Shown: positions 7,567-14,550 of the stretch, piece after piece
Layout: every line of letters starts with the position of its first letter
Position numbering within the stretch: the first letter of the stretch is position 1
DNA from: Acidobacteriota bacterium
GTDB lineage: Bacteria; Acidobacteriota; Vicinamibacteria; Vicinamibacterales; SCN-69-37
Assembly (NCBI GenBank): GCA_020853395.1
Contig: JADYYY010000001.1
Coordinates: 1 to 64,000 of the forward strand
Direction of reading: 5' to 3'
DNA: 64,000 nucleotides
Program-made: the position numbers and the translations under genes
Notes under the pieces: model-generated
What the model saw: the letters and a program-made list of their open reading frames with translations, nothing else
What the model was told of the DNA's origin: nothing
The model's database searches: none

Positions 7567-7609
7567 GCGCTGAGAATCTGCAGTCGTCCTGGCTGCAGAT
7601 TCTCAGCGC
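7567..7609. terminator. Perfect 17-bp hairpin between convergent genes
   Basis: The two 17-nt arms (7567-7583 and 7593-7609) are exact reverse complements around a 9-nt loop. The structure sits between the rightward membrane protein and the leftward methylase, and the TGA stop of the methylase (7605-7603) lies inside its right arm. There is no T-run on either strand, so it may act as a bidirectional or Rho-assisted terminator, or as a transcript-end stabiliser. Confidence 0.6.
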
Positions 7610-10600
7610 CGGTCGTCCGCGTCGAACAGCACGGCCGCGCGGTGCCGATCCTCGACCGGCACCAGCGGAAACCCTTCCAGCACCACCGCGAATTCCTCCC
7701 TCGCCACGCCGTACATCCGGGCCACCTGCGCCTGAATCGCCGCGTTCAGCCGCGGATCGCTGGTCCTCCGCCGCCGGCGGGCGAGCCGCGCGATCCGCCG
7801 GTACCGCCGATCTCGGCCATCCGGCACCGGCAGATGTTCGACGAGTGACGTCGTCAGATGGCTGCCCATCAGCATCCGAACAATCGCGTTGATGACGTAC
7901 GAGTTGAACACGGCGCAGAGGAAGTGCAGCGCTTCGTCCGAGAGCGCCGTGCGAAGACAGAAGAGCGTGTGCGTGGTGACGACGTCGGCGGGCACGATCG
8001 CGGCGATGAGCGACTGGCGGTTGCCGTGTCCGGAGACGTCGCGGTACGCGAGCCGCTGCCGCTCGAACCGGCCGTCCGGCATCAGCGTCAGGGCCGCGTC
8101 GCGGCCGATGCGCGTCGTGGACTCCGTCTCGCGCGTGCGGAACGGCTCGATGTGCTTGCCCTCGATCACGGGCAGGCCGGCCGGGCCGAATGCCTGACGG
8201 TCCTCGGTGGCGTTCAGCTCCCGGCCGAAGCGGCCGTTCCAGGCACCACCGCCGAACGGCGGGAACTGCGCGGCGAGCCGATCCGCCATCGCGAGCTCGG
8301 CGCGCCGCTGCACGAACGGAATCCGGAGGGAAGCGCCGCCGACGCGCGCCACCTGCACCGCGGACAGCCGCACGTCGTCGTCGCGTGACGGCTCGCCGGA
8401 TCGGTCGCGGGCGAGGAGCTGATCGATCTGTCCGGGCGTGCGGAGGCCGAAGCTCGCGCGGACGTCGGTGGTGGCGCCGCCGACGCTCGCGGTCAGGGCG
8501 AGGAAGCGCACGCCTCGATGGATCGGGAACAGCCCTTGTCCGTTGTCGAATCCGACGAGCGTCCGGATTCGGCAATTGCGGAACAGGCGCTGACGCAGCC
8601 GCGCAGAGCCGTCGTCCACCGCGACGCCCCACGGAAGGATCAGGCCGACGTGGCCACCCGGCCGGCAGAGCCCGAGCGCGCGCTCCAGGAACGGCTGGTA
8701 CAGGTTGAGGTGCCCGCCCGCGCTGTCTGCGTAGATGCCGGAATCGCGGATGAACCGCAGGAGATGGCGCGTGTGTTCGTGCGTTCGGCGCTCGCGGTCC
8801 TCTGCCGGATCACGGCGCAGCATTTCCCATGGCGGATTGCCGAGCACGGCATCGAACCCCGCACCGGCACGCGCGGCGCCGGGCTGGTCCGAAAAGACGT
8901 CGCTGAACTCGAGCGGCCAATGAAAGAACGCGTGCATCTTCGCGGCCGCGGAGGCCTGGGCGAGACGGCGCGCGACACGTTCCTGCGGCAGCGTTCGATC
9001 GCCGTTGAGCGCAGCGGCGAGGACCGCGCGAACTTCGGCGGGCGACGGCACACCGTCGCCGTCGTCGGGCCAGAACCACTGCGCGCACCAGAGATCGGCC
9101 GCGCGACGCCATGGATGCAGCGACGAGCACTCGCCGTTGAGCGCTGTCCAGAGCCGCTCCTTCGCGCGAACGTCGGCGACGCCGTCGTCGGACCGCGTCC
9201 GGAGCACGGCGAGCGTGGCGAGCGCGTCCCGCGTGGCCAGATCGAAGTCGTGCTGGTCGAAGAGCGGCAGGACGGGTGCCGCCGAGCGGCGCCGGTTGGG
9301 GAACCTGGAGAGGTCGCCGGGCGACGCGCCGACCAGGCTGTTGCCGACCCGCAGCCGGTGATCGAGGAAGCCGAGCGGCTTGCCGCGCGTGAGCGTGGTC
9401 AGCCACAGCGACAGGCGCGCGAGCTGCACGGCGACCGGGTTGACGTCCACGCCCGCGAGGCAGCGTTCCGCGACCAGACGCCGGATGCCGGCGCGCTCGT
9501 CTTCGTCGAGATCGACGGGCGAGGCCCGCCCCTCGTCGAGCAGGGCACGCTCGTACGCGGCGGCGAGGTACCGGCACGCACAGACCAGGAAGGCCCCGCT
9601 GCCCATGGCCGGATCGACGATCCGCAGTGTGAGGATCTCGTCGGCGCGGCGGCCGGCGACGAGCGGTGCCAGCGTGCGCGCGACGAGGAATTCCGTGAGG
9701 GCCTGCGGCGTGTAGAACGTGCCGGTCCGTTTGCGCGCATCGCTGTGCCGCCGAGCCGCGCGCTCGCGGCGCGCCGTCGAGGACGGTCGGCCATCAGCCA
9801 GCTCATCGGGCGCGAAGTCGAGCACGCGTTCGTACACCGAGCCGAGCTCTTCGACCCCGAGATCGCCGAAGCTGAGCTCCTCCCTCCCGTTCGCCGTCTG
9901 GCGCGTCCCGAGCGACAGCAGCGCAGCGCGGATCGCGGCATCTCGCCGCGCGGAGGCCGCATTCGGACGAGCCGGATGCCGGCGTTCGAGCGCCGGTGCG
10001 GACGATCGCCGGAACAGCTCGCCGTTGAACGGCGGAAGGATCAGGCTCGCGGTTCGACAGCCTCGACGCGAAAGCCGCGTCGCCGCCGCGAGCCCGTCCC
10101 ACAGGCCACGGGCATCCTCGCGCAGCGCCTCGCGGCAGAGTCCCGTCATCGAGTAGCTCTGCGCGTACAGCGGGTGGTCCACCGGCACGAGGTCGCGGGA
10201 CTCGACGAACTTCAGGAAGAGCACACGATAAACGAGCGTGAGGGCCTGCGCGACGCGCTCGTCGGCGCGCCGGCCTTCGAGGACGCCGCCCATCGCCTGC
10301 AGCGCGCGGACGACGCCTCGCCGCAGATCGCCGCGGACGCGGTCCTGTCGCCGCATCGCCTCGGCGAGCAAGCCGTCGATTGGCGCGGGCGCCTGGCCAT
10401 CCGGTGCGTCGAAGCTGGCCGCTCCGGCCAGCAGCCGGAACACCGGGGCTGCACTGCCCGGCAGCGCTTCAGAAAGGTCGAACTCGACGCTGCGGCGCAC
10501 GACGTGGCCGCGCGTATCGACGAGCGAGAGGAACGGCGGCGCCAGCACGAAGCACCAGCGCGAGCCGGCGGCTTCCGCTGTCAGCCAGACGTCCCGCCAG

Positions 10601-10935
10601 GCCGTCGACGGCCGGGTCGCCCACGGCAGCACCATCAACCCGACGGTACGGCCGCCGCGGGTGCGCAGCATCGCCTGCGCGCGGTGGCGTTCGAACCGCG
10701 CATCGTGCGCGCTGAAGCCGAGAATGCCGAAGAGCGGCATCGCGGCGACGTCGAACAGCAGGCGGAGTGCCGACGCCGGGCTACACCTGGCGGTGACTCG
10801 CGGCCACCATCGTCGCAAGTGGGCGCCAGCGGCATCAGCGGGACGATTCGACTGGAGCGCGCACGCACGCGCCGCGACGTCACGCAGGAACCATTCAGGG
10901 AAGAGCGTGCTGGAGATGCCCGGAAGCGACGTCAC
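7603..10935 (-). CDS. Eco57I-type N6-adenine DNA methylase, helicase-coupled
   Basis: A 1110-residue class I methyltransferase with the layout of type IIG/Eco57I enzymes. The N-terminal 1-200 is of unknown fold (WCFVLAPPFLSLVDTRG). A helical region follows, then SAM-binding motif I VDPAMGSGAFL (about 440-450), a conserved GVDVNPVAVQLARLSLWL, and catalytic motif IV NPPW (about 700-703). The C-terminal TaqI-like target-recognition region includes VIEGKHIEPF and FNSYVINAIVRMLMGSHL. I see no PD-(D/E)xK or other nuclease motif. The GTG start at 10935 overlaps the helicase TGA by 4 nt. The 386 codons open upstream in the same frame are Arg/Ala/Pro-rich and antisense-like, so they were excluded. It probably modifies host DNA in a defence module, with the helicase acting on unmodified DNA. 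Confidence 0.88.
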   Translation of the reverse strand: MTSLPGISSTLFPEWFLRDVAARACALQSNRPADAAGAHLRRWWPRVTARCSPASALRLLFDVAAMPLFGILGFSAHDARFERHRAQAMLRTRGGRTVGLMVLPWATRPSTAWRDVWLTAEAAGSRWCFVLAPPFLSLVDTRGHVVRRSVEFDLSEALPGSAAPVFRLLAGAASFDAPDGQAPAPIDGLLAEAMRRQDRVRGDLRRGVVRALQAMGGVLEGRRADERVAQALTLVYRVLFLKFVESRDLVPVDHPLYAQSYSMTGLCREALREDARGLWDGLAAATRLSRRGCRTASLILPPFNGELFRRSSAPALERRHPARPNAASARRDAAIRAALLSLGTRQTANGREELSFGDLGVEELGSVYERVLDFAPDELADGRPSSTARRERAARRHSDARKRTGTFYTPQALTEFLVARTLAPLVAGRRADEILTLRIVDPAMGSGAFLVCACRYLAAAYERALLDEGRASPVDLDEDERAGIRRLVAERCLAGVDVNPVAVQLARLSLWLTTLTRGKPLGFLDHRLRVGNSLVGASPGDLSRFPNRRRSAAPVLPLFDQHDFDLATRDALATLAVLRTRSDDGVADVRAKERLWTALNGECSSLHPWRRAADLWCAQWFWPDDGDGVPSPAEVRAVLAAALNGDRTLPQERVARRLAQASAAAKMHAFFHWPLEFSDVFSDQPGAARAGAGFDAVLGNPPWEMLRRDPAEDRERRTHEHTRHLLRFIRDSGIYADSAGGHLNLYQPFLERALGLCRPGGHVGLILPWGVAVDDGSARLRQRLFRNCRIRTLVGFDNGQGLFPIHRGVRFLALTASVGGATTDVRASFGLRTPGQIDQLLARDRSGEPSRDDDVRLSAVQVARVGGASLRIPFVQRRAELAMADRLAAQFPPFGGGAWNGRFGRELNATEDRQAFGPAGLPVIEGKHIEPFRTRETESTTRIGRDAALTLMPDGRFERQRLAYRDVSGHGNRQSLIAAIVPADVVTTHTLFCLRTALSDEALHFLCAVFNSYVINAIVRMLMGSHLTTSLVEHLPVPDGRDRRYRRIARLARRRRRTSDPRLNAAIQAQVARMYGVAREEFAVVLEGFPLVPVEDRHRAAVLFDADDRR

Positions 10936-13385
10936 CGGATCGGTCTCAGCACGAGCTCGATCCGTGCCGCCGCCACGCCGAGAGCAAGGGCCCGCCGCAG
11001 CAGATCCAGACGTGCGGCGACGTCGGCCTGCTGCGCGTGCTGCCGGCGGCGGTCGTCCTCGAATGCGCGTTCGCCGGCGCGATCGAAGAGGCTCAGCGCG
11101 AAGGGCGCGTGCGTGCGCGCCCGGGCGGACTCGGCGGCGATCGCGAGCTCGGTGCCCACCTCGCGTGCGGCGACTTCGCGCGTGAGGCGCTCGAGCCTTC
11201 GTATTCGCGCCCGCACGCGGCGTGCGTACAGGGGCATCAGATCGACACCCGACCGGAGCAGAAGATCCGGGGGGGTCGAGTTGTCGCCGTCGAACCTCAA
11301 CGGCACGAGCAGTTGTTCGACCTCCGCGCCGGTATCGTCGAGGAGCGAGACCGACACGAGAAGCAGCGCGTTCCGGTGATCCGACGGACGCGAGGCGATC
11401 CACGGCCTGCCGATGATCGGCTGCGGCGCGCGCCAGTGCGCCATCAGCACGCGGCGCCGCGAGAGCACGCGGCTCACCGCGCGCGCCGCTCGCATCCACC
11501 GGAGGCCGCTGTCGCGAAGGGCGTCCGGCGGCGACGGGTGGAGCGGCTCGCCTGCGATCAGGGCGGCGGCCACGGCCGCTTCGCTGGGCGGGATCGCACG
11601 CGCCAGCGCCTGGTCGCCCAGCGACCGGCGTGCCGTCAGAACCCGCCGGAGCACGTGCGAGAGCAGCCGTTCCTCCGCGGGATGGCGTGCGAGCAGCAGC
11701 GTCAGATGTACGCGTCGCCGCTGGCCGATCCGTTCGACGCGGCCGATGCGCTGCTCGAGCTTCAGCGGATTCCACGGCAGGTCGACGCTCACGACCCAGC
11801 GCGCCGCGTGCTGCAGGTTGAGGCCTTGCCCGGCGACGTCGGTCGCGAGCAGCACCGTGGCTCGGCCCGAGACGAAGCGGGCGAGCGCCTCGGCGTGTTC
11901 CGCGGGAGATTGGCCGCCGTGCATTGCCGCGAGGACGCGGCATCCGGAGAGCTGCCTCTCCAGCGCTTCGAGCGAATGACGGAACTCGGTGAAGATGACG
12001 ACCGGCTCGCGCGTTCGCGAGAGCAACCGCCGTACGTGCGACACCCGGCTGTCGACGGCGACGAGCGCGAGCCGTCGCAGCCGCTCGAGCCACCGACGCT
12101 CGTGGTCTCGCGGCAGCCCGCTGTCGGCCTCGAGCGCGTGCTCGTCCTCGCCGACGTCATCGGCTGAAAACGGCAGCGGCGCCTGGCGCCAGGGGTCGAG
12201 CGCGTCAGTGCCCGCGCGGTCGAGGATCGCCAGGCGGCGCGCGAGCGTCGCTGCCAGCGCGCTCATCGTCGACAACGCGCGCTTCCGAAACACCGACAGC
12301 AGGAGAATCGCGGCGTGGCCCGATGGCTCGGCGCGGCGCAGCACCTGGGCTTCGAACGCCAGCAACGCGTCGAGCACGCGCCTGTGCGTCGGCGTGAGCG
12401 CCAACCGCCGCCAGCACGTCCGCCGGCCGAGGTCGAGGCCGGCGTCCTGCTGTGTGCGCCGGAATACGAGCAGATCGTCCTTCTCGGACGGCAATCGGCC
12501 CAGGCACGTCAGCCGATCGAAGCGCGCCTCGTCGCCCGAGTGTGGCGTGGCGGTGAGGAGCACGAGCCGGCGGGCGCGCCGGCCCATGGCGTCGCACGCC
12601 TCGTGGCGATCCGTATCGCCGCAGACGTCGTGCGCTTCGTCGACCACGACGAGGTCCCATGGCCGCTCGGGAATCGTGGCCAGCACGTGCGCCTGCTTGA
12701 GGTAGTCGATCGAGACGAGCCAGATGCCCGGCCGCATCCACGGCGACTCCCGGAGGGCGCCCGCTCGCGCGTGCCCGGCGAGCGACTGGCGATCGATGCT
12801 GGCCGTGCCGAGGCGGAATCGACGGCCGAGCTCGTCCGCCCATTGGGCCTGGAGCGTCTTCGGCACGACGAGCAGCACGCGGGCGCCGCCGTCACGTCGC
12901 ACCAGTTCCGCGACCAGCATCGCCGCCTGGATGGTCTTGCCCAGACCGACATCGTCGGCGACGAGCAGTCGTCGCCAGCCGGCCAGCGACGCCAGCGCCG
13001 GAGCGATCTGATACGGAAGCAGGCCGATCCTCGCGTCGAGCAGCGCGACCGGCAGGCGGAAGGACGATCGGCGCGCGACGAGCCAGGCGCAGCGGGCACA
13101 CGCGCGTCGGAGGCGCACGCGTTTCGCCCGCCGGCGCGGGTCGGGCGCCTGTGCCCGGTCGAATGGCAGGAGAAACGCGCGGCGTTCATGACGGCCGGCC
13201 ACGTCGACGCGGATGATGCCGCGTTCGAGGCTGATCTGCTCGACGATCCATCGTTGCTGACGGATCCACAGGATGGCACCAGGGCGAAGCCCGGGGCCCG
13301 CCAGGCAGGATTCGCGATCCGGATCGCCGGCCGGCGCTGCAGAATCTGCGACGTCGGGCTGAGAAGTCTCTCGAGAATCGAGCAC
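10932..13385 (-). CDS. SNF2/RapA-like superfamily 2 helicase (DrmD-like)
   Basis: An 817-residue SF2 ATPase. It has motif I ADDVGLGKTIQ (143-153), motif II VVVDEAHD (247-254), motif III LLTATPHSG (276-284), motif V LLATDVAGQGLNL (513-525) and motif VI EQRIGRVERIGQ (544-555). The spacing between the RecA-like lobes and the DVGLGKT box fit SNF2/HepA-like translocases such as DISARM DrmD. The C-terminal 200 residues show no motif I recognise. A GTG at 13385 is the first start in the frame but has no clear ribosome-binding site, so the true start could lie a little downstream. It is translationally coupled to the methylase by GTGA. Together they resemble the DrmD/DrmMI part of class 1 DISARM; drmA, drmB and drmC homologues are absent from the window. 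Confidence 0.88.
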   Translation of the reverse strand: MLDSRETSQPDVADSAAPAGDPDRESCLAGPGLRPGAILWIRQQRWIVEQISLERGIIRVDVAGRHERRAFLLPFDRAQAPDPRRRAKRVRLRRACARCAWLVARRSSFRLPVALLDARIGLLPYQIAPALASLAGWRRLLVADDVGLGKTIQAAMLVAELVRRDGGARVLLVVPKTLQAQWADELGRRFRLGTASIDRQSLAGHARAGALRESPWMRPGIWLVSIDYLKQAHVLATIPERPWDLVVVDEAHDVCGDTDRHEACDAMGRRARRLVLLTATPHSGDEARFDRLTCLGRLPSEKDDLLVFRRTQQDAGLDLGRRTCWRRLALTPTHRRVLDALLAFEAQVLRRAEPSGHAAILLLSVFRKRALSTMSALAATLARRLAILDRAGTDALDPWRQAPLPFSADDVGEDEHALEADSGLPRDHERRWLERLRRLALVAVDSRVSHVRRLLSRTREPVVIFTEFRHSLEALERQLSGCRVLAAMHGGQSPAEHAEALARFVSGRATVLLATDVAGQGLNLQHAARWVVSVDLPWNPLKLEQRIGRVERIGQRRRVHLTLLLARHPAEERLLSHVLRRVLTARRSLGDQALARAIPPSEAAVAAALIAGEPLHPSPPDALRDSGLRWMRAARAVSRVLSRRRVLMAHWRAPQPIIGRPWIASRPSDHRNALLLVSVSLLDDTGAEVEQLLVPLRFDGDNSTPPDLLLRSGVDLMPLYARRVRARIRRLERLTREVAAREVGTELAIAAESARARTHAPFALSLFDRAGERAFEDDRRRQHAQQADVAARLDLLRRALALGVAAARIELVLRPIR

Positions 13386-13441: not shown

Positions 13442-13717
13442 TCATTTGGCGGCCGGTTCGATCAGCCGGGCGATGGTCGCGCCGAGATGAGAGTGCCTGT
13501 CGTCCTCGAACTCGGCTACGAGCGGATGGCGCTCGAGCGCGGCCTGCACGATGCCGCGCTGGATGCCGCGCCCTCTCCCGTGGACCAGCCTCACCTCGCG
13601 AAGGCCTGCCTCGTGCGCCTGCGTCAGGTACGCGTCGACCGCGTCCGGGATGTCGCGCGGCGCGAAGGCGTGGAGGTCCAGCTCCGGCTCGAGCGGCACG
13701 ATGTGGACGTCGTCCAC
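13442..13717 (-). CDS. Stand-alone Smr-domain protein
   Basis: A 91-residue protein consisting of little more than an Smr (MutS2 C-terminal) domain. DLHAF is near residue 14 and the conserved VRLVHGRGRGIQRG is near 42-55. Smr domains bind or nick branched DNA, and some cleave RNA on stalled ribosomes; HGRG is the conserved loop. It starts 15 nt after queF and ends 56 nt before the helicase gene, so it sits in the same leftward run. It may be housekeeping rather than part of the defence pair. Confidence 0.85.
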   Translation of the reverse strand: MDDVHIVPLEPELDLHAFAPRDIPDAVDAYLTQAHEAGLREVRLVHGRGRGIQRGIVQAALERHPLVAEFEDDRHSHLGATIARLIEPAAK

Positions 13718-13732
13718 GATGCCGAGGCGGGC

Positions 13733-14095
13733 TCAGGACGGATGGGCGGCGTCGAACGTCGCCACGACCGTCGTCGTGATGCCGCCGCGAGCGGTGAAGG
13801 CGCCCGTCACGCGCATCCGCCGCGGCCGGCAGGCGGCGACCAGATCGTCCAGGATGCGATTGGTGGCCGCTTCGTAGAAAATGCCCTGATTCCGGTAGGC
13901 GAGCAGGTAGTACTTGAGCGACTTCAGCTCGATACACGCCGAGTCCGGCACGTAGACGATGGCGATCTCGCCGAAATCCGGGAGCCCGGTCTTCGGACAC
14001 ATCGAGGTGAATTCCGGACAGCGGATCTGGATCTCGTAGTCCCGTTCGGGCCTCGGATTGGGAAACGTCTCGAGCGTCGCCGCCATCGCTGTCAT
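13733..14095 (-). CDS. queF: NADPH-dependent 7-cyano-7-deazaguanine reductase (QueF)
   Basis: Reduces preQ0 to preQ1 in queuosine tRNA-modification biosynthesis. It is the short, unimodular YkvM type. Signatures are [13 protein letters not shown] at the start, the catalytic Cys in [35 protein letters not shown] (NADPH/substrate motif, read in two parts) and NRILDDLV. The start at 14095 was chosen to match the usual family N-terminus. In-frame starts at 14131, 14125 and 14113 and a GTG at 14143 remain possible, and none has a strong ribosome-binding site. It is the first gene of a leftward run continuing into the Smr, helicase and methylase genes. No other queuosine gene is in the window. Confidence 0.92.
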
Positions 14096-14250: not shown

Positions 14251-14550
14251 ATGGCAGACGCCCGGCGCATGGGCAAGATGGAACTGTTCGCGCACTTCGC
14301 GGACAAGTTCGAGATGAAGCGAACGCAAGTCCGTGATCTGTTCGACGAACTGAACCGGTTGTCCGAAAAGGAACTGAAGCGTTCCGGCGAGTTCGTTCTT
14401 CCGGGGATCGCCAAGCTGGTCGTCCAGAAGCGCAAGGCTCGTGAAGGCCGCAACCCGGCCACCGGCGAGCCGATCAAGATTCCGGCCAAGACCGTGGTCA
14501 AGGCGCGGATCGCGAAGCAGCTCAAGGACGCCGTTCTTCCCCGCAAGTAG
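14251..14550 (+). CDS. HU/IHF-family DNA-binding protein
   Basis: A 99-residue nucleoid protein close to the usual 90-100 residues of HU. It has the N-terminal dimerising helices (KMELFAHFADKFEMKRTQVRDL), the central FVLPGIAKLVV strand, and the DNA-binding arm REGRNPATGEPIKIPAKTVV with the intercalating-Pro motif RNP. The C-terminal strand and helix VKARIAKQLKDAV replaces the more usual VPFFKAGKELK. GGGAGAAG lies 5-12 nt before the ATG. It bends and compacts DNA. It is transcribed alone from the TTGACA promoter and ends in a 12-bp hairpin. Confidence 0.92.
   Translation: MADARRMGKMELFAHFADKFEMKRTQVRDLFDELNRLSEKELKRSGEFVLPGIAKLVVQKRKAREGRNPATGEPIKIPAKTVVKARIAKQLKDAVLPRK

Follow-up and report, generated by a model that had tools for sequence, protein, structure and literature searches.

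Closest described systems

ARMADA is a defence system composed of a helicase (ArmA), a methylase (ArmB) and a YprA helicase (ArmC), in some cases together with ArmD (Bell et al. 2025, PMC12458937). In the single ARMADA that has been tested experimentally, deletion of any of the four genes abolished protection (PMC12458937). The best precedent for a modification-only pair is the nuclease-less DnmA of Bacillus subtilis, an orphan m6A methylase which is partly replisome-proximal and regulates genes (PMC9973331, PMC7261158); restriction of phages or plasmids by DnmA-YeeB-YeeC was not detected under the conditions tested (PMC7261158, PMC9973331). Our search of the open literature found no Luteitalea methylome and no earlier methylation work on the Vicinamibacterales, the order to which the present host belongs.

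The helicase-methylase locus

The DNA analysed here (the window) is a 64,000-nucleotide stretch of an Acidobacteriota genome. It carries a helicase-methylase gene pair in the following setting:

14251..14550, plus strand: HU-type DNA-binding gene, divergent conserved neighbour (its ortholog in locus L082 matches Pfam Bac_DNA_binding)
13733..14095, minus strand: queF, conserved upstream neighbour, which marks the site of the pair
13442..13717, minus strand: smr-domain gene, conserved upstream neighbour of the pair
10932..13385, minus strand: SNF2/RapA-type helicase (ArmA/DrmD-like), GTG start, 817 aa, intact
10932..10935, minus strand: GTGA stop/start overlap (translational coupling), in which the helicase TGA overlaps the methylase GTG
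7603..10935, minus strand: predicted Eco57I-type N6-adenine methyltransferase (ArmB/DrmMI-like), GTG start, 1110 aa, intact

The window's annotation places queF, smr and HU upstream of the pair, and a short-chain dehydrogenase and a response regulator downstream. Two plus-strand ORFs between 5715 and 7570, downstream of the methylase and convergent with it, have no Pfam match. Translational coupling of the helicase to the 1110-residue methylase, proposed in the initial annotation, is borne out by the GTGA overlap, and 4-nt overlaps are found in about 10 of 40 orthologous loci when the longest-ORF starts are used. The listed ORF starts are mechanical, and conservation backs the helicase start only from about residue 35 onward. 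A chance reading of the pair is excluded because dozens of related genomes hold orthologous pairs (methylase identity 44-56%).

The helicase

Pfam matches of the helicase are SNF2-rel_dom and Helicase_C. Its top defence profile is DrmD, with 191 bits in PADLOC and 219 bits for NCBIfam NF038317 versus a cut-off of 610, and its AlphaFold2 model (pLDDT 83) has RapA as the nearest fold. The catalytic motifs are conserved in alignments of 46 helicase and 56 methylase sequences. The helicase motifs are:

12933..12956, minus strand: Walker A, DDVGLGKT, residues 144-151 (K150 and T151 invariant)
12630..12641, minus strand: DEAH box, residues 249-252 (invariant)
11721..11753, minus strand: motif VI, QRIGRVERIGQ, residues 545-555
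11085..11099, minus strand: position of a clamp-binding-like motif, residues 763-767, ALSLF in the window's copy

The C-terminus is weakly conserved across orthologs (mean identity 0.21), apart from a short Q-x-G-L-F-D stretch.

The methylase

The methylase matches Pfam Eco57I with 69 bits, and DrmMI is its top defence profile (304 bits). Its AlphaFold2 model (pLDDT 90) is nearest to the folds of BrxX/PglX, with BrxX as the top match, and of CamA. The initial annotation was right about a DrmD-like SNF2 helicase beside an Eco57I-type methylase, which is DrmMI-like by profile, but the curated cut-offs for DrmD and PglX were missed. The following regions were recognized in the methylase:

10396..10935, minus strand: N-terminal pseudo-nuclease domain, residues ~1-180, with the alpha-beta-beta-beta-alpha-beta order of PD-(D/E)xK domains
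9595..9615, minus strand: SAM-binding motif DPAMGSG, residues 441-447
8827..8838, minus strand: catalytic motif NPPW, residues 700-703 (invariant in 56 sequences)
7816..8358, minus strand: putative target-recognition region, residues ~860-1040

At hhalign 95%, the N-terminal profile aligns to nuclease domains that look active in solitary relatives. None of the 16 orthologs checked possesses the catalytic E-x-K, the position of which falls in a gap, and ARMADA-type methylases outside the host order gave the same result (0/19). The active PD-(D/E)xK that a type IIG restriction enzyme has in its N-terminal domain is thus missing from this protein. As in orphan m6A methyltransferases, there is no cognate nuclease in the gene or operon, judged from the annotated neighbours and the N-terminal domain, and the methylase is vertically conserved. 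The putative recognition region is not hypervariable in the host order; it is conserved like most of the methylase (0.35-0.57), from which we surmise that the target motif may be similar across the order, although the base-reading loops could still vary.

Relationship to ARMADA

Genomes were scanned with the methylase alignment and the best 80 loci by similarity were kept. Outside the host order, all 19 helicase-methylase loci of this similarity-ranked sample that have enough flank include a large YprA/DruE-like helicase, as expected from the gene set of ARMADA; six further outside loci of this kind, the flanks of which are cut by contig ends, were left out of this count. No YprA-type gene is present in 40 host-order neighbourhoods or in the first 26 kb of the window. 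A methylase tree built without certified DISARM sequences unites the host order in one clade (support 100), nearest to ARMADA-type loci of the actinobacteria Nocardia and Verrucosispora. The main group of solitary methylases, which includes many with a nuclease motif that looks active, lies elsewhere on this tree.

At the window locus, a RapA/BrxHII-like SNF2 helicase (ArmA) adjoins a PglX/YeeA-like methyltransferase (ArmB), and the operon has no YprA-family helicase (ArmC). By annotation, the conserved neighbours of the pair belong to families other than ArmD (GajB-like helicase with a RelE domain). Both proteins are shorter than their ARMADA homologues, at 817 versus ~950-1000 residues for the helicase and 1110 versus ~1280-1520 for the methylase. 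A DUF1998 protein occurs in 51 of 60 relatives, away from the pair and usually as a frame of ~800-900 aa; in the window's genome the sole DUF1998/YprA-like protein is a solitary 914-aa frame on contig C11 (G000:C11:25773-26063). In genome G056, whose core pair lies on contig C2, a further DUF1998 protein is encoded at C59:36802-39373, in a 1764-aa frame beside a second, distant SNF2 helicase. This is probably a separate ARMADA-type locus and would then be an internal control.

Distribution and inheritance

A full or near-full methylase is found in 102 genomes from 12 of the 15 families seen in the host order (Vicinamibacterales), with a single full-length copy, and the helicase adjoins it in every host-order locus whose contig is long enough to show it. 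The site common to many families reads HU, queF, smr, helicase, methylase, followed by TauE or ketopantoate reductase genes; queF accompanies the pair in 23 of 41 loci and HU in 22 of 41. Across the phylum, methylase matches outside the order reach 474 bits at most, versus more than 1000 for nearly all full-length copies within it. Among plasmid and phage records, none matches the methylase over 80% of its length.

Inheritance of the pair largely matches the species tree. Most families of the order stay together on the methylase tree, and of 21 splits the methylase has 10 and the helicase 11 in common with the rpoB tree, where shuffled labels average 0.25-0.28 and give 3 at most; such partial agreement is also expected from short deep branches. 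The methylase and helicase trees have 23 of 37 splits in common. Nine changes are needed to explain presence and absence of the pair on an rpoB tree of 45 selected genomes. In close pairs, dN/dS is 0.17-0.23 in the methylase and 0.17-0.32 in the helicase. Both genes, and every region of the methylase, lie well below 1; the helicase C-terminus evolves fast (0.31-0.55). Branches of the pair are 4-5 times longer than those of rpoB. Conflict-driven evolution would also give long branches and a fast helicase C-terminus.

Four pair-less genomes have in-place scars beside queF, between it and the usual downstream genes: helicase fragments in G004 and G011, and methylase fragments in G128 and G158. 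Families f14, f3 and f9 are without the pair (in f9 queF is kept, with no trace of the pair at the site) and losses are sporadic elsewhere; the pair is therefore dispensable. In locus L054 of draft genome G013 two stops break the methylase frame, the result of either an assembly error or recent decay. Locus L096, titled Acidimicrobiia (Actinomycetota), has a methylase that is nested on the tree within this Acidobacteriota order; the record is either mislabelled or misbinned, or reflects a transfer.

A clamp-type motif in the helicase C-terminus

A QxGLF-type motif is present in 29 of 36 helicase orthologs against 0.26 in shuffles, counts that ignore relatedness. The AlphaFold2 model of the helicase places it in a loop joining two long helices. 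Outside the host order, QL[SDNGTP][LI][FL] follows motif VI in 14 of 24 related helicases against 0.4 expected (relatedness again ignored), and precedes it in none of these 24. In form, both stretches match the bacterial sliding-clamp-binding pentapeptide. The window's own copy, ALSLF, is degenerate rather than QxxLF, and Luteitalea-like members deviate too; clamp binding by the helicase, which we infer from such motifs, is least certain here.

Among ARMADA-type loci, the helicases of L100, L102, L112, L122, L126, L145, L153 and L171 show QLSLF or QLGLF at two different C-terminal places, and 10 of 14 linked methylases have a Q-containing clamp-like motif in one loop. A corresponding motif in the methylases of the host order was dropped as a candidate, with matches in only 7 of 37. 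No earlier work on clamp motifs in DISARM or ARMADA was found in the open literature. It is a tentative suggestion, and one we rate as rather improbable, that ARMADA-type systems attach both their helicase and their methylase to the sliding clamp and that the host order turned the helicase-methylase half into a replication-coupled, order-wide epigenetic machine.

Origin and possible function of the pair

The explanation that we favour, and to which we give about an even chance, is that the pair is an ARMADA-derived ArmA-ArmB module without ArmC that has been domesticated into a modification-only unit, fixed in the chromosome, passed on vertically and possibly coupled to replication. Intact ATPase and methylase motifs, a dead nuclease domain, a fixed site without YprA, descent largely in step with the species tree, purifying selection and loss scars can all be read directly from the DNA. 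The ancestry and inheritance of the pair are well supported by these comparisons, and its function, methylation and clamp binding are what we infer from them. Loss of ArmC by the pair assumes that the ancestor had it.

Under this domestication model, the methylase would methylate adenine at N6 within a single sequence motif that is similar throughout the order. The translocase would move along the DNA and load, move or clear the way for the methylase, probably acting near replication forks via the sliding-clamp-type motif where this is present. The outcome would be epigenetic marking, for gene regulation or self-marking, like that by orphan DnmA; the pair would not by itself cut phage DNA. Its likely role is to mark host DNA, not to combat viruses unaided.

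The main rival is a two-gene defence kept by vertical descent. The methylase would mark the genome and, with the translocase, stop unmarked incoming DNA from replicating, with no cleavage involved, along the lines proposed for BREX. The module descends from defence genes (PMC12458937), BrxX is the top fold match of the methylase, evolution is fast, chiefly in the helicase C-terminus, losses are patchy, and clamp binding could equally steer the pair to replicating phage DNA. We nevertheless regard this as possible rather than probable, given the single housekeeping site without defence-island context or mobility, the recognition region that is not hypervariable, and the requirement for all four genes in the tested ARMADA (PMC12458937). 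That last result also speaks against the view in the initial annotation that translocation could protect without a nuclease, which was conjecture. The annotation's expectation that the pair recurs alone was right, but it does so at a housekeeping site, from queF-smr to metabolic genes, and by vertical descent, not in defence islands. A partner encoded elsewhere, such as the solitary YprA/MrfA-like DUF1998 helicase, could complete a split defence or repair system, and this protein is indeed widespread among relatives, usually at ~800-900 aa. We think this unlikely: the gene sits elsewhere and is also present in the pair-less genomes G004, G015, G021 and G055, and its size fits the solitary repair type, not the 1600-2100 aa of ARMADA.

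The initial annotation had suggested a minimal DISARM-like defence and noted that drmA and drmB are absent nearby. The absence is confirmed in the annotated neighbourhood of the pair, and the pair as such stands; its derivation from Class 1 DISARM by loss of drmA, drmB and drmC is disfavoured, and we consider it quite improbable. DrmD and DrmMI are the top named profiles, and their families share homology with those of ArmA and ArmB, but the helicase scores far below the DrmD cut-off, and the nearest loci, on the tree lacking certified DISARM sequences, hold YprA/DruE-like proteins rather than drmABC. Least credible of all is a non-functional ARMADA relic in the course of being lost. The annotation had named a decayed remnant as the outcome that would overturn it, and the third ARMADA gene is indeed missing, the proteins are shortened and some genomes bear scars; yet the catalytic motifs are invariant, dN/dS indicates purifying selection on both genes, and almost every genome in the 12 families has intact frames.

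Defence genes are usually gained and lost readily, whereas two of the three ARMADA-type genes behave like core genes in this abundant soil lineage. With the core-like pair and its visible loss scars, the passage from defence to housekeeping epigenetics becomes directly testable, and the clamp-type motif suggests a testable way in which such helicase-methylase pairs could find DNA.

Comparison with known systems

ARMADA shares with the pair both gene families and their arrangement as well as a nuclease-dead methylase, and it supplies the nearest loci on the methylase tree; the pair described here differs in being without ArmC, in its shorter proteins, and in being vertically fixed rather than patchy, with no island context. 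Class 1 DISARM (DrmD, DrmMI, DrmA, DrmB, DrmC) has related helicase and methylase families, whereas the pair falls below the cut-off of the DrmD model and has no DrmA- or DrmB-type genes in its annotated neighbourhood; by the locus annotation, DrmC (PLD nuclease) is also not among its neighbours. The likeness to BREX (BrxX/PglX, BrxHII) lies in the fold of the methylase and in the RapA-like relatives of the helicase, but the methylase scores 20-46 bits against curated PglX cut-offs of 400-900, and other BREX genes were not seen at the locus.

CamA of Clostridioides difficile, an orphan m6A enzyme, resembles the methylase in its core fold (TM 0.66 by target length); we know of no paired helicase for CamA, nor of a pseudo-nuclease domain of this kind in it. 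DnmA (YeeA)-YeeB-YeeC likewise presents a nuclease-less m6A methylase beside a helicase as the relic of a defence operon. In B. subtilis, however, it lies with YeeC in a horizontally acquired island, whereas the pair described here, the m6A activity of which is predicted, is without YeeC and forms part of the core genome across an order.
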